41,034 nucleotides of DNA from a virus. Location of the stretch: IMG/VR virus record IMGVR_UViG_3300030451_005792, positions 1 to 41,034 of that record; one strand, 5' to 3'. Below the pieces are notes generated by a model, which was given only the letters and a program-made list of their open reading frames with translations, was not told where the DNA came from and searched no databases. The position numbers were made by a program, and so were the translations under genes. Shown here in pieces: positions 3,791 to 41,034 of the stretch. The stretch's first letter is position 1. Each line of letters begins with the position of its first letter.

Positions 3791-6700
3791 ATGGCTAAAG
3801 GTTACAATCTTACAGTTCAACTTAATTTACAAGGCCCTAATAATCTTAATGGGGTTGTTAATAATATTAATAAAAGACTGAATAATATTCAGGCTAATGT
3901 TAATGTTAAATTACCTACTAGTACTTTAAGACAGATTGCTCAAGTAAATCGTAATTTAAAGCAAACAGGCAAAAGTGCAGCCGATGCCGCCAGCGGTATG
4001 GAAAAATTTGGTAAAGCTGCTGGTTTGGCTGTTAAGCGTTTTGGTGCATTTACTGCTGCTACTGCTGGTTTTTACGCAATTACTAGGGCTACACAACAGT
4101 CTTTAGAGAAATTTGTAGAATTTGATAGACAGCTTACCAGAATTGCTCAAGTTACCAATAGCTCTAAACAGTCTCTTAATGGTCTTACGAACGAAATTAC
4201 AAAACTGTCTGTTTCTTTAGGAGCTAGCAGCACAGAACTAGCTAGTGTTGCTGTTACATTGAGTCAGGCTGGTCTTAGTGCTAGAGAAACACAAAGAGCA
4301 TTAAAGGCATTGGCGTTAACTACATTAGCTCCTACATTTAATAATTTAAATCAAACTGTAGAAGGCAGTATTGCTTTAATGAAACAGTTTAGTATTAGTA
4401 CTAGACAATTAGAGCAAGCATTAGGTAGTATTAACGCTGTTGCTGGAAGTTTTGCTGTTGAAGCAGGCGATCTGATTACAGCTGTTCAAAGAGCTGGTGG
4501 TGTGTTTGCTTCTGCTAGTAAAGGGGTAGCTACAGGCACAGATGCTCTGAATCAGTTCTTGGCTGTGTTTACCAGCGTTAGAGCAACTACCCGTGAAAGT
4601 GCGGAAACAATTGCTACTGGTTTAAGAACTATTTTCACTCGTATTCAACGATCAGATACTATTGAAAGTCTCAAAGCCTTTGGAGTTACTCTTACAGATT
4701 TAGAAGGTAAGTTTGTTGGACCATACAGAGCTATAGAACAGTTAAGTAAAGGATTAAGAAGTCTTGATCCTAGATCTTTAGAATTTAGTGGTATTGTTGA
4801 AGAACTTGGTGGATTCCGGCAGGTTGGTAAAGTTATTCCTTTAATTCAAAGATTTTCTACAGCACAACAAGCTCTTAATGTTGCCCAACAAGGCTCTGGT
4901 TCTTTAGCTAGAGATGCTGCTACAGGTCAACAGACTTTAGGTGTTCAGATTGCTAAAGTACAACAGCAGTTTGATGCTTTGATTAGAAGTATAGGACAAA
5001 CATCAGAATTTAGACAATTTATAACTTTAAGTCTTGATCTAGCTAGTGCTTTAATTAAAATTGCAGATGCTATCAAACCAGTACTGCCTGCATTGGCTGC
5101 TTTGGGAGCTGCTAAAGTAATAGGAGGTTTAGGAGGTTTAGCTAAAGGCTTTAAAGGAGGAATAGGTTTCAATCAGGGAGGCATGGTTCCGGGCAGTGGT
5201 AATTTTGATAGTGTTAAAGCTAACCTAACTCCTGGAGAATTTGTAATTAGGAAAAAAGCTGTACAAGCTATTGGTGTCGACAATCTTCACAGAATGAATA
5301 AGTATGCTTATGGAGGCCCTGTTTCTTTCAAAGGAATTACAGGAGCAAGACAAGGAGGTAGATCATTAGCAACTAGACTAGCAGCATCAAAAAGTGACGC
5401 ATTTAAACAAGGCGCTCTTATAAATTCTAGAGATAGTTTTTCTCAAGCTGTAAATATAAAATCATTTAGTTCTGCAACTATTGGAGGCATGCTTAAAGGC
5501 AAAAAGGGAGCAGCGTTTACAATACGTAAACTAGCTGATAAAAATCAAAATGTTCGTGGAGCTGAGTTTGAAAACTTTATACAGACATATGTTGCTGGAG
5601 CTGGCACCAGAACTACTGGAAATGCTCCTCTTGATTTTGTTGGCCCTCCTGGAGAAGCAAAGTTTCAATCAAGCAATGTTCCTTATAGAGACTTATTAGC
5701 TAAATCACTAAGACAAAGACTAGACTCTGGTAGGTTTGCAGCATTAAGAGATAGTCGGGGAGGAGCCCCTTCAGAATCTATACAGTCTTTTGATAATATA
5801 TATGCAGGTGGTGTTAACCTATTTAAATTACAAGGAAGATTTAATTCTAAAACTGCAAGAGATGCAGCAGGATTAAATAAAAAGAAAAAGACTACAACCT
5901 CAAGAAAACCAAAAGCAGCAGGAGGTCCTATTAGTGGACAAGACACTGTTCCTGCTTTACTTACTCCCGGTGAGTTTGTAATTAGTAAAGGTGCTGCTAG
6001 TAGAATAGGATCTTCCAATCTTAAAGCTCTTAATAATGCTGATAGAATCACGGGATATAATCGTGGAGGTTTTGTTCAAAGATTTAATAAAGGAGGAGGT
6101 CCTAAAGGTGGTGTCGGCAGTGGTGGTGTATTAGATTTGTTTCTAATACAAGGCTCTGTGTCTGCTTTGACTGCAGCTATGGGAGATGCTACTCGAGCCA
6201 CTAAATTGACTGGCGACGTAGCGCAATCATTTGCTACTGCTCTTAATACAGGTATTGTAGCTTTTTCAGCTCTACAAATGGCACCAGGCGGTAGCACAGA
6301 AAGGGGACGTAAATCTGCAGGTAGAGGGGCTGTAGCATTAGGAGCTATATTTGCACTAGATGGTGTTTTAAAATCAGTCAATAATAGTGCTGCTGAATTT
6401 GATAAGAAATTAGGTCAAACTAATTTTGACAAAGCTTTAGATGAAGCTAGTAAATCTCTAGAAACATTAGCTAAAAATGGAAACGATGCAGCGGCGGCTG
6501 CTCAGTTACAATCACAAATATCTCAGGCAGTAAGTTCTGCTAGAGCTGTAAATGAGGCATCAACTGGTGGTAGATATAGTTTACGTCAAGGTGTGATGGA
6601 TTTGGCTGCTTATTTCACTGGAACCGGAGGGGTTACTGGTATTGCTAGCGGTATGGGTGATCAGTATGATCTTGCAGCTAGTAGGGTTCGCTCTCGTCAA

Positions 6701-35254: not shown

Positions 35255-35632
35255 TTAGAATGCTACAGGCTGTTCTTCCTTAGATTCTGTAGCGGCGCTT
35301 TTCTTTAGCTTAGTAATCTTAGAGAAATTATTTACTCTAACCTTCATAGTACTATGCTTAACACCGTCTTTTTCCCACTTATCGTTTCTCATTGAACCTT
35401 CTACAAAGACTAAGTCGCCTTTTCTAAAAGACTCTGCGATAAGCTCTGCACCGCTATCCCATGCTTCACAAGGAATGTATGAAACAATCTTATCTCTCAC
35501 ACCATTGGCCTTGGTATATTCTCTAGAGACAGCCACCGTAAAATTAATAACAGAGATTTTTCTATCTCCACTATCAATCTTTCTCAGTTCTGGATCTCTC
35601 GTAAGATTGCCTCGTAAAATAACTGTATTCAT
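35255..35632 (-). CDS. ssb: Single-stranded DNA-binding protein, bacterial OB-fold type
   Basis: A 125-aa protein with MNTVILRGNLTRDPELR at the start, then a VINFTVAVSREY strand, SYIPCEAWDSGAELIAESF and RKGDLVFVEGSMRNDKWE, the full landmark set of the bacterial SSB OB-fold. The C-terminal ~20 residues are Lys/Ser- then Glu-rich and end in PVAF, a variant of the acidic tip that docks partner proteins (usual ending D-D-I-P-F). It coats ssDNA at the phage replication fork. It has its own promoter and 5' stem-loop just upstream, and GGAG eight bases before the ATG. Length is shorter than host SSBs (~160-180) because the linker is short. Confidence 0.92.
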   Translation of the reverse strand: MNTVILRGNLTRDPELRKIDSGDRKISVINFTVAVSREYTKANGVRDKIVSYIPCEAWDSGAELIAESFRKGDLVFVEGSMRNDKWEKDGVKHSTMKVRVNNFSKITKLKKSAATESKEEQPVAF

Positions 35633-35685: not shown

Positions 35686-35713
35686 ATTATAGCCTAGTAT
35701 GATTCATTGTCAA
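35686..35713 (-). promoter_or_regulatory. Consensus sigma70-type promoter for ssb and downstream genes
   Basis: On the minus strand TTGACA (35713-35708) and TATAAT (35691-35686) are both perfect consensus hexamers, separated by 16 bases. The -35 overlaps the TGA stop of the Pol III alpha C-terminal gene. It is the only full-consensus promoter I noticed in the window. It would drive ssb and probably the glycosyltransferase and recombination genes by read-through, using host RNA polymerase. Confidence 0.85.
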
Positions 35714-37311
35714 GACTGAGGAATGAAAATTTTGTCTACTATTAAGCTTTCTTTATCTTTAGATCTATTGCCTTTTATGATAATAATATTGCCATTAAAT
35801 AAAACATTTTGATAAATTCTGTATGCTTCTGGAAATATAACAATAGAATCCAAGACTCCTGTACTGTCTGACAGGCTCAAAAATGCCATTTCAGCACCTT
35901 TATTTTTGCCTGATTTAGTTTTGACTACATTTACTTGTTCTATTTCTCCAGCTAATACGACTTCTTTTTGAGCATTTTTTGAGAAATCTCCACAAGTAGA
36001 ATTTGTGTTGGAAACATCATACATATCAATTCTAGAACAAGATATAGAGTAGCCTAATAGTTCATATTCTTTATCAGAAATCCACTCTATTGAGTCGTTT
36101 AAGTCAAATGGTGGTTTGTCTATACTTTTAATATGATTGTTGACAATTGCTTGTCTTCTAATATTAATTTTATCTAACATTAGTTTTTGCAGTATGTCTT
36201 TTATGGTCGAGCCTTCAGAGATGTATTTTTTACATTTTTCTATTTCTTTTTTTGTTAGATCTGAAATTATACTATATTCAAATAACATGCAGTTTCTAGT
36301 TTTACCATAATGATCCATTGCCCCAGAAGATATCAAGCCTTTAACTGCTGTGCTATTCAAGTTTAGCAATATATTAAAAAGTAATTCTACCCAACTTAAT
36401 TTATCTATATTATAATCTTTTACTAAAGTCTCTAGCTTCTTAAAAACAGATTGACCAACACCCTTAATATCTGTCAAACCAAAATATATAATTTTATTTT
36501 TTAAAACAAAATATTGATTTAGCTTTCTAATATCTGGCGTGGAAACCAAGATGTTCATTTGAGAAGCATTTTGTATGAGTTCTTTGATTTCTTGTTGTGT
36601 ATCTATTTTATCCTTAGCGAATTTAAGATATGACGCAAAAAATGTTCTGGTGAAGTGTGCTTTGCTATATGCAGATAAGTAGGCATTCATGGCATAGCTA
36701 ACAGCATGACTTTTATTAAAGCTGTATCTTTGGCTTTTTTCAATCCAAGAAAATATTTGTTCTGCTTGTTCAGCGGAAATAATATCTAGTTTTTTGCAAC
36801 CTTTAATAAATTTGTCTTTTAACTTGGACATCTCTCCTGCTTTTTTCTTACCAATAGCTTTACGAAGCATGTCTGCTTCCTGTAAATCAAAACCAGCTAA
36901 TTCTTTAGCAATTTGCATAGCTTGTTCTTGATAAACCATTTCTCCAAAAGTATTTTTAAGAATAGGTTCTAGAGCAGGATGAAAGTAATCTATAGACTCT
37001 AATCCATTTTTCTTGTCTATATAATGATTACTGACCGTTTTGCCATCTCTGACAGCTTCTAAACATCCCGGCCTCATAATACTAATCAAGGCTGAAAGTT
37101 GTTCTATAGAATCTGGCTTTAGTTTTTTAGCCATACTTCTTCCAAGTCTAGACTCTAGTTGAAAACAACCTTTAGTATTGCCACTAGATATTAAATCCCA
37201 AGTAGCACTACAGTCTAAATTTATGGAGGAAATTTGTGGATCAAAAATGATATTTTCATTTTCGTCTAGAGCAAATTTACATCCGCAGTTTTTATATTCA
37301 AAGTATTTCAT
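35710..37311 (-). CDS. DNA polymerase III alpha, C-terminal half (fingers, HhH, OB)
   Basis: A 533-aa product. After a ~45-residue N-terminal segment with a CGC cysteine pair, it continues where the N-terminal polymerase half ends: KGCFQLESRLG (48-58), ISIMRPGCLEA (77-86), GEMVYQEQAMQIA (123-135), EADMLRKAIGKKK (145-157), RYSFNKSHAVSYA (195-207). These are the nucleotide- and template-contacting fingers of DnaE. FGLTDIKGVG (277-286) is the helix-hairpin-helix region. The last ~85 residues form the OB domain, and no tau-binding C-terminal domain follows. It starts in an ATGA overlap with the exonuclease gene. It has no catalytic aspartates, which are all on the other half, and no intein residues. 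The SFN site where cyanobacterial DnaE is split is uninterrupted here. Confidence 0.85.
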   Translation of the reverse strand: MKYFEYKNCGCKFALDENENIIFDPQISSINLDCSATWDLISSGNTKGCFQLESRLGRSMAKKLKPDSIEQLSALISIMRPGCLEAVRDGKTVSNHYIDKKNGLESIDYFHPALEPILKNTFGEMVYQEQAMQIAKELAGFDLQEADMLRKAIGKKKAGEMSKLKDKFIKGCKKLDIISAEQAEQIFSWIEKSQRYSFNKSHAVSYAMNAYLSAYSKAHFTRTFFASYLKFAKDKIDTQQEIKELIQNASQMNILVSTPDIRKLNQYFVLKNKIIYFGLTDIKGVGQSVFKKLETLVKDYNIDKLSWVELLFNILLNLNSTAVKGLISSGAMDHYGKTRNCMLFEYSIISDLTKKEIEKCKKYISEGSTIKDILQKLMLDKINIRRQAIVNNHIKSIDKPPFDLNDSIEWISDKEYELLGYSISCSRIDMYDVSNTNSTCGDFSKNAQKEVVLAGEIEQVNVVKTKSGKNKGAEMAFLSLSDSTGVLDSIVIFPEAYRIYQNVLFNGNIIIIKGNRSKDKESLIVDKIFIPQS

Positions 37312-37994
37312 TGTGCAAAAGAATTTCTAAACTTAATCTTTTTGGCCTCATTTCTATGAAGTCTTAAAAACCTAATTAACATTGCCGCACAATCATTAAC
37401 GTCTTTCATGGCATCATGCGCCCCTTCTTTGCTTATGCCTAAGTAATCACGCATAGTATCTAATGAAAGGCTTCTTAAATCTTCGTTATTTTCAAACCAA
37501 AGAAACATCAAATGCATCAAATCTATTTTGTCTCTAGGATGAAAAATATTGTTGGTTTTATCTTTGCCTACGTTTTTATATTTTAAAGCCATTCTGTCTA
37601 CTATAGGCATATCAAATCTTAGTATATTATAGCCTGCTGCTATAGGAGCAGAAAACATACTTTTACGAGAGCTTCTAGTATGATATTTATCTAGGTAATT
37701 AACAAATTGGCTCCAAGATTGTTTTTGTGACGGAAAATTTTGCCAATTATTTAATACTTCTGATGCTGTACTATTTTGTGCTTTTGCATGAAACTCTAAT
37801 AGTTCAGTATCGTACTGATGGTTTGGGTCTTTATCTAGTAATTCAGGTTTAAGATTTATATTAAACTCAGAGTTAGGTATAACCTCTAGTCTGTCTGCAT
37901 CTACCATAACGGCAGCAAGTTGTACAGGACTACACTGAAAGGGATCTTTGCCATCTGTCTCAAAGTCGAAAATACATATTTTATTTTTTTTCAA
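37308..37994 (-). CDS. DnaQ-like 3'-5' proofreading exonuclease (DEDDh)
   Basis: A 228-aa protein with all DEDDh exonuclease signatures in order: Exo I DFETDG (D10, E12), Exo II YNILRFD (D128) and Exo III HDAMKDVND (H193, D198). Such enzymes remove mismatched 3' ends with two metal ions and act as the epsilon subunit with Pol III alpha. The gene lies between the two polymerase halves. It overlaps the downstream half by 4 nt and the upstream 61-aa gene by 14 nt, strongly suggesting a joint replicase. Length is near that of bacterial epsilon (~243), with no obvious clamp-binding tail. Confidence 0.85.
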   Translation of the reverse strand: MKKNKICIFDFETDGKDPFQCSPVQLAAVMVDADRLEVIPNSEFNINLKPELLDKDPNHQYDTELLEFHAKAQNSTASEVLNNWQNFPSQKQSWSQFVNYLDKYHTRSSRKSMFSAPIAAGYNILRFDMPIVDRMALKYKNVGKDKTNNIFHPRDKIDLMHLMFLWFENNEDLRSLSLDTMRDYLGISKEGAHDAMKDVNDCAAMLIRFLRLHRNEAKKIKFRNSFAQ

Positions 37995-38166
37995 TTCTTG
38001 TTACCTCATCTAAGGGTCGGAATACTGCTTCAGCACCATCTAGTTTTCTTTTTGCATTACATTTAATTTTGCAACAACTAACTCTTACTTCAGGAACTTT
38101 TTCATATTGAGCATTTTGTCCTTGTTTAACAAAAATATCATTGATACTTAAATCTTTAAATTGCAT
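37981..38166 (-). CDS. Small conserved-looking protein in replicase operon (61 aa)
   Basis: The start ATG at 38166 lies directly beside the upstream polymerase stop, and the end overlaps the exonuclease start. The layout MQFKDLSINDIFVKQGQNAQ, then YEKV, then SCCKIKCNA (an adjacent cysteine pair plus a third) and a final VFRPLDEVTRIE looks like a small beta-barrel protein type I have seen in other phages as an unnamed protein. I do not know its function. The cysteines could bind a metal. Its coupling to both polymerase and exonuclease genes argues that it is a real gene. Confidence 0.65.
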   Translation of the reverse strand: MQFKDLSINDIFVKQGQNAQYEKVPEVRVSCCKIKCNAKRKLDGAEAVFRPLDEVTRIEKK

Positions 38167-38167
38167 T

Positions 38168-40045
38168 TTAAACTCCTTGTTTTAACATTGAAGATATGTT
38201 CATAATTTTATCTAGTACTGCTACTCCAAGAATATCAAACTTAATGACTCCAATATTTTCTAAGTCTTGCATTTCCATACCAGCGATCAGATTTTTGTTT
38301 TTGGTATCGTAAACCATAGGGCAAATATTTGTTAGTTTTTCTGGAGCGATAACTACTCCAGCAGCATGTTTTGACTGATTGGTTTTAGTTCCTTCTAATC
38401 TAATAGACTGCTCAAAGCGCTTTGACAAGGGGCCTTGTAAATTTCCTTCTTTATCTATCGAACACCACTCTTTTAAATCTTTAGATTTATTTTCTAAAGT
38501 CCATTTAATAATAGATGCCTCGCCTTGTTCTTTTTTCATTTCCTCTAATTCATCAGAGATTTTTGCTTCATCAGGTATATTTTTAGTAATTTTATTCATA
38601 TCTTCAAAAGAGAGATTTCCGTATGCTCGTAAAACATCTTTTAAAGCACCACGACCTTTCATAGTATTAAAAGTAAGCATCTGAGAAACCTTATCTTCTC
38701 CGTAGGTTTGTTTAATATATTCAATAATGCCCTCTCTTTTATCAATAGGAACATCTAAATCAATATCTGGCATAGACACCCTGTCCTTAGTATTTCTTCC
38801 AGCATTATAAAATCTATCAAACAATAAGTCATATTTCATTGGATCAATTGAGGTAATACCCAAAAGATAAGAAACTAAACACCCTGCTGCACTACCCCTA
38901 CCCGGCCCCGGCAACCAAGAAGAACTTCTAATGTACTTAACAATATCTTGAACAATTAAAAAGTAACTAGACAGACCAGCGCCATGTAATACATCAAATT
39001 CATATTTTAGTCTGTTTACATATTTATCTTGTATTTCCTTATCTAAGCCATTAAGTTTGTTATTTCTCCAACCTTCTCTACAAAGTTGTCTTAAATAGTC
39101 CGAATCAGAATCGTATTCATTAGGATATTCAAAAGGAGGTAGAATAGGCTGGCTAAGAATATTGTATTCTTCGCATAATTGATCTACAAAAGCTGTGTTT
39201 TCTATTTCTTCTTCTGTGTGTAAATCGTGCATTTCTTCACTAGATGGTATATAATACTTATCGCTATTGAAAAAACAAGATAGTCCAACCTCTATATTAT
39301 TTTGTAATTTATGGTTAACAGCAGATAGAGTAGTTCTCATGTTATTACATAGTAAAATTCTTTGATCTACTGCATCTTCTTGTTTAGCATAGTGGGCATC
39401 GGGTGTACAAATTACTTTGGTTTTAGTAGATTGTCCAAGCGACCTAATATTATTAGTAAGTTCAACTTGCACAGGGTTTGCTATTTGATCAATTAATTGA
39501 GCTTCTAGAAAGACGTTGTCTTTTCCAAACATATTTTGCAGTTGTGATATATGGTTGGTTGCGTCTTTTTTCCAACTGTCACTAATCTCGTCCTTTACTA
39601 CAATACGATTGGCTAGTGTAGAACCTAAATGTCCTGTAATTGCTATTATATTACCATCCAGCAAATCTCCTAAAGTTTCTAAATCTATTCTAGGTTTATG
39701 GTAAAATCTATCTGGATGATTAGATTCTGAGACTATCTTAATCAAGGTTTTCCATCCCTTTAGATTTTTACACAATACAACCAGATGTTCTAATTTTGCA
39801 TTCTCTTTCTTTTTTTCTTTAGAACATTGTTTAGATATATAAAGTTCACAACCTAAAATCGGTTTAATATTATTGCTTTTTAATTGTTGATAAAATTGCA
39901 CAGCACCTGAAATTGATCCATGATCTGTAATCGCACAAGATGTTGCGCCTATGCTTTTGCATCTATTGACAATGTCTTTAGGTTTACTTAAACCATCTAG
40001 CAAAGAATAGTGAGTATGAACATGTAAAGGAGTATATAATTTCAT
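38168..40045 (-). CDS. DNA polymerase III alpha, N-terminal half (PHP, palm, thumb)
   Basis: A 625-aa product. The PHP domain starts with HVHTHYSLLDG (8-18), then ITDHGS (39-44), GCELYIS (65-71), H87, TGHLGS (137-142) and TPDAHY (214-219). Most metal-ligand positions are filled, so the PHP site may be active. The palm has PGPGRGSAAG (379-388) and MPDIDLD (425-431) with catalytic D427 and D429. The thumb leads to NQSKHAAGVVIAP (556-568). KFDILG (602-607) holds the third catalytic D604. The protein stops 21 residues after D604, at the palm/fingers junction, where normal DnaE runs on for ~500 more residues. The stop is followed at once by the next ATG. No intein signature is present at the C-terminus. 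Confidence 0.88.
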   Translation of the reverse strand: MKLYTPLHVHTHYSLLDGLSKPKDIVNRCKSIGATSCAITDHGSISGAVQFYQQLKSNNIKPILGCELYISKQCSKEKKKENAKLEHLVVLCKNLKGWKTLIKIVSESNHPDRFYHKPRIDLETLGDLLDGNIIAITGHLGSTLANRIVVKDEISDSWKKDATNHISQLQNMFGKDNVFLEAQLIDQIANPVQVELTNNIRSLGQSTKTKVICTPDAHYAKQEDAVDQRILLCNNMRTTLSAVNHKLQNNIEVGLSCFFNSDKYYIPSSEEMHDLHTEEEIENTAFVDQLCEEYNILSQPILPPFEYPNEYDSDSDYLRQLCREGWRNNKLNGLDKEIQDKYVNRLKYEFDVLHGAGLSSYFLIVQDIVKYIRSSSWLPGPGRGSAAGCLVSYLLGITSIDPMKYDLLFDRFYNAGRNTKDRVSMPDIDLDVPIDKREGIIEYIKQTYGEDKVSQMLTFNTMKGRGALKDVLRAYGNLSFEDMNKITKNIPDEAKISDELEEMKKEQGEASIIKWTLENKSKDLKEWCSIDKEGNLQGPLSKRFEQSIRLEGTKTNQSKHAAGVVIAPEKLTNICPMVYDTKNKNLIAGMEMQDLENIGVIKFDILGVAVLDKIMNISSMLKQGV

Positions 40046-41034
40046 TCTGTACTTCCTGGAGCCTTGTAGTGTCCTATATTATAACCCGGAACAGTGTACT
40101 CGTCAACAGTATTTTTATATCCTTTTACAGAAATATCGTGAGCCACCTGTTCACATTTAGTCATAGGACTATTTACAGAGCAAACCTGACCATCTCTGTA
40201 TTCTATCAATGGTTGTATGTCACTATTTTCAAATGTTGTTTTACCATAATGACACAGCTTAGTGCATTTCCAAGTCTTTTTCAATTCTGGTTTTACGGTG
40301 TTTTTAATATGTTTAAATTTTTTCTTTAACAACTCTTCTGTTTTGTATAAATCTTTTTTACTAAACGTCATACTAAAAGGACCACCATCATTAATAAAAT
40401 ATATGGTAACAATACAATGATCTATTTCAGGATAAAGTTTATTTACTGCATAATAATAAATCATTAGCTGTGGGTCAATCTCTAATTTTTCTTGCGTCTT
40501 TTCTTCTCCTGTTGCCCAATTAAGTCTACGTCCTGTTTTCCAATCAATAATTTCAGCAGTATTTTCGTTTGGTTTTGTTATTAAGTCAATTGTTCCTTTG
40601 ATAGATAATTGACCTTCTAGTGGCCCATCTTTCGTGTCATACTTAAATTTGGCCCAAGGCTTATCAATAGTTATATCAAATTGTTGTTCTGGATATAATA
40701 TATTTTTATTACGAGGATCAAACATTCCATCAGCATAATTAATTGCTTTATATGTCCACTTAGAACAATCTTTAAAGTCAACATTTGTCCACTTATGATG
40801 AGTAAAAGCACTAGTATAATAAGTATATACAGACTCTATAATACCGTCCAAATTGTAATCTTCAACATATACCTCTCCTACAATATCGTCTGTAAAAGAC
40901 CGATTACCTTGTTGTTGGTGATACTTAATAAATGCCAAAATTTCTAATACTTTATGTACAATAGTACCCTTATCTGCTTTTTTATTAGAAGGAGATCTAT
41001 AGCCTAATACATAATCAAAGAAGTATTGTTGTTC
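40042..41034 (-). CDS. RecB/Cas4-like PD-(D/E)XK nuclease, 5' end cut by window edge
   Basis: The frame is open to the right edge. Reading back from the edge gives EQQYFFDYVLGYRSP, then GTIVHKVLEIL, the N-terminal landmark of RecB/Cas4/AddB-type nucleases (a G-x-x-x-H-x-x-L-E helix), so the TTG at 40938 is not the start. KGTIDLI and AEIIDWKTGR supply the D...DxK active site, and the 'DPQLMIYYYAV' helix follows. The C-terminal quarter has spaced cysteines (WKCTKLC, QVCSVN, MTKCEQ) that could bind an Fe-S cluster or zinc. Family members cut ssDNA or dsDNA ends in recombination or replication. It ends in a 4-nt overlap with the polymerase N-terminal gene. Confidence 0.75.
   Translation of the reverse strand, partial: EQQYFFDYVLGYRSPSNKKADKGTIVHKVLEILAFIKYHQQQGNRSFTDDIVGEVYVEDYNLDGIIESVYTYYTSAFTHHKWTNVDFKDCSKWTYKAINYADGMFDPRNKNILYPEQQFDITIDKPWAKFKYDTKDGPLEGQLSIKGTIDLITKPNENTAEIIDWKTGRRLNWATGEEKTQEKLEIDPQLMIYYYAVNKLYPEIDHCIVTIYFINDGGPFSMTFSKKDLYKTEELLKKKFKHIKNTVKPELKKTWKCTKLCHYGKTTFENSDIQPLIEYRDGQVCSVNSPMTKCEQVAHDISVKGYKNTVDEYTVPGYNIGHYKAPGSTE

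Follow-up and report, generated by a model that had tools for sequence, protein, structure and literature searches.

The stretch of viral DNA analysed here (the window) comprises positions 1-41,034 of the record IMGVR_UViG_3300030451_005792, which itself spans 92.6 kb. It encodes the alpha subunit of DNA polymerase III (Pol III alpha) as two separate proteins, an N-terminal half (N-half) with the PHP, palm and thumb domains and a C-terminal half (C-half) with the fingers, HhH and OB domains, with an exonuclease gene located between them. This arrangement very probably stems from an ancient fission of the Pol III alpha gene, the products of which assemble non-covalently as the phage replicase. 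It is also likely that the lineage, whose members are large, uncultured viruses of bacteria, has long kept such a palm-fingers-divided, non-covalent replicase as its only polymerase, with the exonuclease made between the halves, and that in some relatives the enzyme is encoded by three genes, one junction being sealed by an intein and the other unsealed.

Two halves of a DnaE-type polymerase

Across the two open reading frames (ORFs), the domain order of a DnaE-type C-family polymerase is present, namely PHP, palm/thumb, finger, HhH and OB. Of the 1022 positions of the TIGR00594 model, the N-half covers 1-572 and the C-half 581-1021, and only the 8 positions in between are missing. In profile searches, DnaE models outscore PolC by far on the halves. 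The enzyme is not of the PolC type, since the exonuclease is encoded separately, an embedded exonuclease domain is absent and the sequence is not PolC-like. The single polypeptide typical of DnaE is likewise not found, neither in the window nor in any relative holding both halves. The OB domain of the C-half scores slightly under the Pfam cut-off and is backed by the structure model and Foldseek.

The catalytic residues D427, D429 and D604 of the N-half are invariant across 21 aligned relatives, D604 being the counterpart of D555 in the E. coli enzyme. In the alignments of both halves, these aspartates and the finger motifs show the strongest conservation. Among PDB entries, each half finds bacterial Pol III alpha in sequence as well as in fold comparisons. 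The AlphaFold2 model of the N-half (pTM 0.83) finds bacterial Pol III alpha at 1e-40 in Foldseek, and the C-half model does so at 8e-19. The single-chain models are least confident in the zones where the partner would pack (residues 378-432 and 606-619 of the N-half, 48-108 of the C-half), which may be taken as weak evidence that the halves depend on each other. The features of the locus are as follows.

38168..40045, minus strand: N-terminal half of Pol III alpha, 625 amino acids (aa), PHP, palm and thumb (Pfam PHP 1e-38, DNA_pol3_alpha 1e-73)
38765-38767, 38759-38761 and 38234-38236, minus strand: codons of the catalytic aspartates D427, D429 and D604 of the N-half (alignment)
37981..38166, minus strand: small gene, 61 aa, with the motif Y.K....(K/R)(V/I)SCC..NA (alignment; clade-restricted)
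37308..37994, minus strand: DEDDh (DnaQ-superfamily) 3'-5' exonuclease gene (exo), 228 aa, TTG start (RNase_T 1e-8, PHROG 192 3e-20)
35710..37311, minus strand: C-terminal half of Pol III alpha, 533 aa, fingers, HhH and OB (DNA_pol3_finger 6e-48, HHH_6 4e-8)
37228..37311, minus strand: N-terminal extension of the C-half, ~28 aa, with a CGC motif (alignment, linker comparison)
40042..41034, minus strand: PD-(D/E)XK (RecB-like) nuclease gene (pdk), directly upstream of the N-half and leaving the window (PDDEXK_1 2e-15)
35255..35632, minus strand: single-strand DNA-binding protein gene (ssb), 3' of the C-half (SSB 1e-25)

According to the ORF list of the window, the gene order on the minus strand is pdk, N-half, small gene, exo, C-half and ssb, and both outer neighbours are kept in relatives. 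The pdk and N-half genes overlap by 4 nucleotides (nt), the N-half and small genes lie 1 nt apart, the small gene and exo overlap by 14 nt, and exo and the C-half gene by 4 nt. A coding overlap of 4 or 8 nt between the last two is found in 66 of 90 loci. These overlaps suggest coordinated translation, and the replicase genes may be translationally coupled.

A preliminary description of this DNA had listed these ORFs with their overlaps and adjacencies, including the 61-aa and DEDDh genes between the halves, and the coordinates and junctions agree. The domain assignment of both halves and the three aspartates are borne out by Pfam, TIGR00594 and the alignment of 21 relatives. The alignment to the E. 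coli enzyme likewise supports its placement of the break just after the third aspartate and away from the cyanobacterial EY/CFN site, where the corresponding QRY/SFN is intact. Its statement that the break holds no intein residues also stands, as there is neither a family match nor room for an intein.

On inspection, the metal ligands of the PHP domain are largely retained (H8, H10, D17, H42, E67, H87, D216 and H218, with His in place of Cys at ~139; N-half residues 8-218). The PHP domain may therefore be an active nuclease beside the DEDDh exonuclease.

Conservation and phylogeny of the split

In a scan of 2.9 million viral contigs, the C-half had 184 relatives, of which 80 were kept, and the N-half had 32. 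Complete loci number 95, the window included, and contain 67 distinct C-halves. In the following, L-numbers are labels of related viral loci or contigs, and clade A is the clade of the window. The order pdk, N-half, (small gene), exo, C-half, ssb, with separate ORFs, is found in every locus holding both halves, and the suggestion to look for the same break and gene order in other phages is thereby answered. Clade B (L105, L162-L173), at 42-50% identity, is divided likewise into N-half, exo and C-half. The deepest contig, L160, encodes the N-half, a 110-aa ORF, RNase HII, a zinc-ribbon protein and the C-half; upstream of these lie pdk and a nucleotide-kinase-like gene. Three contigs from metagenome-assembled genomes (L129-L131) also carry the split.

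The halves are separated by conserved coding sequence of about 850 nt. The median ratio of nonsynonymous to synonymous substitution rates (dN/dS) among close relatives is 0.038 for the N-half, 0.047 for the C-half, 0.027 for exo and 0.17 for the small gene. Retention of the break in relatives and the low dN/dS, a sign of purifying selection, show that the stop is genuine and that the genes are not in decay.

A tree built from the concatenated halves plus unsplit enzymes groups the split clades A, B and L160 with a support of 100/99. By this phylogeny, the split within the A+B+L160 lineage is of single origin. A break in the same loop is present in Rossellomorea phage phiT1 (gp20/gp19/gp18, PV767480), where two coding sequences (CDS) are annotated as Pol III alpha with a 49-aa ORF between them. 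This phage differs in having neither an exonuclease in the break nor the CGC extension, and its genome gave no RNase_T match. It groups with unsplit Bacillus phages (support 85/93); when it was forced into one clade with A+B+L160, the constraint was not rejected (p-AU 0.315, approximately unbiased test). The tree grouping, together with a shared C-half extension that phiT1 lacks, argues for one old fission in the lineage and probably a second, independent one in phiT1.

Position of the break

Relative to E. coli alpha, the N-half aligns up to ~565 and the C-half from ~586. In the crystal structure of E. coli alpha, the palm ends at ~560 and the fingers start there. The unsplit DnaE-type enzymes compared (E. 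coli DnaE and those of phages MTATph1, Leo2 and 276BB001) have the same domains in the same order, ~27-35% identity and the same catalytic aspartates. They are, however, single polypeptides without an exonuclease placed inside. In unsplit phage and bacterial enzymes, a linker of 42-59 residues separates KxDFLG, which holds the third aspartate, from FQLES in the fingers; in the window, two gene ends take the place of this linker. The N-half ends ~10-20 residues past DKIM and the C-half starts ~50 residues or less before FQLES, the lengths of this tail and head varying among relatives. The break thus sits within the length-variable palm-fingers linker, just past the third catalytic aspartate. 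Cyanobacterial DnaE is also made as two polypeptides, but these are broken at EY/CFN and ligated by a split intein. The break in the window lies at another site and is without an intein; the position equivalent to EY/CFN is QRY/SFN at residues 196/197 of the C-half and is uninterrupted.

The CGC-motif extension of the C-half is common to clades A, B and L160 (CTC in L160) and is not found in unsplit enzymes; some members of clade A have lost it. The extension possibly serves metal binding or docking. Within residues 1-34 of the C-half (37210-37311), Cys34 is invariant in clade A.

Genes inside the break

The exonuclease gene is constant in the break of clades A and B and is replaced by an RNase HII gene in L160. 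Its DEDDh residues D10/E12, D128, H193 and D198 are conserved, so that the catalytic residues expected of an epsilon subunit are present, and PHROG 192, 'DNA polymerase exonuclease subunit', matches it at 3e-20. A tblastn search against GenBank phages gave no matches, and there was no sequence match in the PDB either. The protein is probably the proofreading partner of the split polymerase. In L016, the exonuclease frame is broken at 5320-5989 (two tblastn pieces in different frames), which reflects a frameshift or an assembly error.

The 61-aa gene is found by the ORF rule in 93 of the 95 loci and throughout clade A. Its product has no Pfam match and no PHROG match below 0.001. In clade B, the position after the N-half holds nothing, a SET-domain gene, a zinc-ribbon-like gene or another small ORF. 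The SET-domain gene lies between the N-half and the exonuclease, at 1756-2103 in L163 and at 7868-8215 in L178. The preliminary description had treated the 61-aa gene as part of the system. Within the clade of the window this is appropriate, as the gene is universal there, but it does not extend to clade B. As a general idea, a role of the 61-aa protein as an obligatory bridge between the halves was rejected because in clade B this position is empty or taken by different genes. The idea of a paired metal site formed by the small gene product and the CGC extension is weakened, as members of clade A without the extension retain the small gene.

In L011, L012 (4452-5135) and L111 (8998-9681), an ORF of ~227 aa that looks HNH-like by eye is located exactly between the stop of the N-half and the small gene; these ORFs gave no Pfam HNH match. 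The varied cargo would fit a gene boundary at which new genes can be taken up, and a fission caused by an endonuclease stays compatible with it.

Inteins, introns and endonucleases

Pfam and NCBIfam profiles gave no intein family match in the halves of the window. An intein at the palm-fingers break was rejected, as there are too few residues and no HN/C or HN/S junction. Inteins do occur elsewhere in the same polymerase. In L107-L111, L021 and L027, a split intein introduces a further break into the N-half, at GPGRG/S (e.g. L107 5977-9066). The N-intein follows GPGRG (TIGR01445, 37.8 bits against a cut-off of 24.5), the C-intein ends in VHN/S ahead of SAAGC, and a free-standing PD-(D/E)XK-like ORF with weak Pfam support lies between the intein fragments. 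Together with the palm-fingers break, the split intein results in a three-gene polymerase in these loci. These loci serve as an internal control: an intein is readily recognised where these phages use one, and the palm-fingers break has none.

In L131 (3230-4935), a LAGLIDADG ORF interrupts the N-half right ahead of the catalytic MPDIDID motif. Introns were not detected by Rfam in L113, L114, L012, L160 and L122, and also not in the interrupted L131, which makes this a weak negative. A further contiguous, intein-like LAGLIDADG insert splits DWK/TGRR in the upstream PD-(D/E)XK gene of L067 (1284-3224), L104 and L131; its first residue would be Gly, which is unusual for an intein.

The only detected polymerase and other replication genes

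Twelve related contigs of 122-233 kb each encode one Pol III alpha, always in the split version, and neither PolA nor PolB was found in them. The contig of L027 carries the split enzyme with its additional internal break. In the 92.6-kb record of the window, each half occurs in one copy, and no full-length dnaE elsewhere and no PolA were found; PolB was not searched there. The possibility raised earlier, that a full-length dnaE exists elsewhere in the genome, accordingly receives no support from this record or from the 12 larger contigs.

A DnaB-like helicase, a Toprim protein, RecA, a class II RNR-like protein, PhoH and RuvB are encoded in the record. A sliding clamp (DNA_pol3_beta_2) was found neither there nor in 13 related contigs. 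An AAA protein at L117 4975-5934 was suggested by PHROG as a phage clamp loader; this was rejected, as Pfam shows RuvB. The gene, which encodes a RuvB-like Holliday junction helicase, corresponds to positions 84975-85934 of the genome of the window.

Comparison with known split polymerases

In group 2.2 jumbo phages, a minimal Pol III alpha is encoded as two standalone proteins that are thought to reconstitute the enzyme (Iyer et al. 2021, PMC7824862). The genes of these minimal halves are distantly located and occur alongside a family B polymerase (PMC7824862). The split in the window, in contrast, is near full length with PHP, HhH and OB present, its genes are adjacent, and PolB is missing from the 12 related contigs. 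Fractured phage genes are a further precedent, in which endonucleases and split inteins take part and a replication gene is in pieces with a gene between them (Dassa et al. 2009, cited in PMC6892783; MIJ3 PolB). The relatives L107-L111 have a split of this kind. It does not lie at the palm-fingers break, which lacks an intein and contains an exonuclease.

Pol III alpha is also annotated as two CDS, in some cases separated by an HNH or hypothetical gene, in Lactobacillus phages 8014-B2 and Maenad and Bacillus phages Jayan and KLEB27-3. The breaks of these four lie elsewhere, either at N-half residues ~420-428 or within the fingers; the interruption site of L131 is close to the break of 8014-B2 and Maenad. 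The earlier characterization of the locus as unlike normal dnaE or polC is correct in that there is no single chain and no PolC, but it needs to be qualified, as split precedents exist in jumbo phages, phiT1 and other phages. No tested system combines a near full-length enzyme, a palm-fingers break that is unsealed, an exonuclease inside it, the status of only detected polymerase and conservation in a lineage. No published description of this exact split was found in the literature searched, with subscription journals and preprints mostly outside that search.

Proposed mechanism and alternative explanations

Under the favoured explanation, an ancestral phage gene for a DnaE-type Pol III alpha would have been divided once, long ago, in the palm-fingers surface loop. 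The N-protein would supply PHP, palm, thumb and the three metal-binding aspartates, and the C-protein the fingers, HhH and OB. Both would be made from one tightly packed, overlapping cluster of pdk, N-half, small gene, exo and C-half, followed by ssb. The fingers of the C-protein would then dock on the palm of the N-protein and complete the nucleotide-binding site, and the exonuclease translated between the halves would be the probable proofreading partner. It is in this sense that we infer assembly, activity and the proofreading role. Non-covalent assembly is the simplest reading, as no other polymerase was detected and the active-site residues are fixed on both halves; the former point strongly favours assembly.

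Several points weigh against this explanation. The support for assembly comes from sequence comparison and single-chain models, and confidence in the model of the C-half is modest (pTM 0.50). All members of the lineage are metagenomic. Most contigs are fragments, so that a divergent polymerase beyond the three tested families, or one located off-contig, is possible, as is the use of the host polymerase instead. The best NCBIfam matches of the exonuclease are exodeoxyribonuclease I and generic 3'-5' exonucleases; they are weak and not epsilon. Of the split replicase co-located with its proofreader that had been proposed from the sequence, the two-gene, intein-free organisation with an adjacent exonuclease is thus upheld. 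The assignment as proofreader is less firm in view of these matches and of the RNase HII that stands in its place in L160.

A lone metagenomic contig could hold an assembly error, a frameshift or a decaying pseudogene, and the broken exo frame of L016 illustrates this. As an account of the split it can practically be dismissed, given the same break and order in ~95 loci and more distant clades, the ~850 nt of coding sequence between the halves and a dN/dS of ~0.04; the relatives also exclude the stop error that had been named as a possible refutation. The halves might instead act separately, for instance the N-half as a PHP nuclease, while a host polymerase replicates the genome. The largely retained PHP ligands would fit such a role, but a mere nuclease leaves the strong conservation of the polymerase aspartates and finger motifs unexplained, and the phage itself encodes a helicase, a primase-like Toprim protein and an SSB, so that this view is very unlikely. 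Covalent rejoining, through an undetected intron comprising the small gene and exo or through an unrecognised trans-splicing element, is improbable as well. The split intein of L107-L111 and the LAGLIDADG interruption of L131 demonstrate that trans-splicing and insertions occur in the polymerase of this lineage. The palm-fingers break, however, offers no intein room or suitable junction although inteins elsewhere are recognised by the models, Rfam finds no intron (a weak negative), and the inserted genes are conserved coding sequence that differs between clades, with variable tail and head lengths.

The origin of the fission is a separate matter. A homing endonuclease may have invaded the palm-fingers loop and later been lost or replaced by exo or other cargo, a scenario that is compatible with non-covalent assembly of the halves. 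The HNH-like ORFs that directly follow the stop of the N-half in L011/L012 and L111 point in this direction, as do endonuclease-linked splits of Pol III alpha at other sites (the annotated HNH gene of KLEB27-3, L107 and L131) and the different cargo between clades. Most members, however, retain no endonuclease, and the ORFs are accounted for just as well by a later invasion of a gene boundary that was already there. This origin is therefore plausible but somewhat doubtful.

Implications

A replicative polymerase of the C family normally consists of one large chain. The present lineage, with the catalytic aspartates and the fingers on separate chains, shows that permanent fission is tolerated at the palm-fingers junction, and it offers a natural two-part polymerase in which assembly, fidelity and proofreading are open to testing. 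With phiT1 as a second case, the junction is a recurrent fission point and also a cargo site for an exonuclease, RNase HII, a SET-domain gene, a zinc ribbon and HNH-like genes, in a polymerase that has been a repeated target of endonucleases and inteins. Where annotation pipelines look for a single dnaE ORF, they will label the halves as two partial genes.

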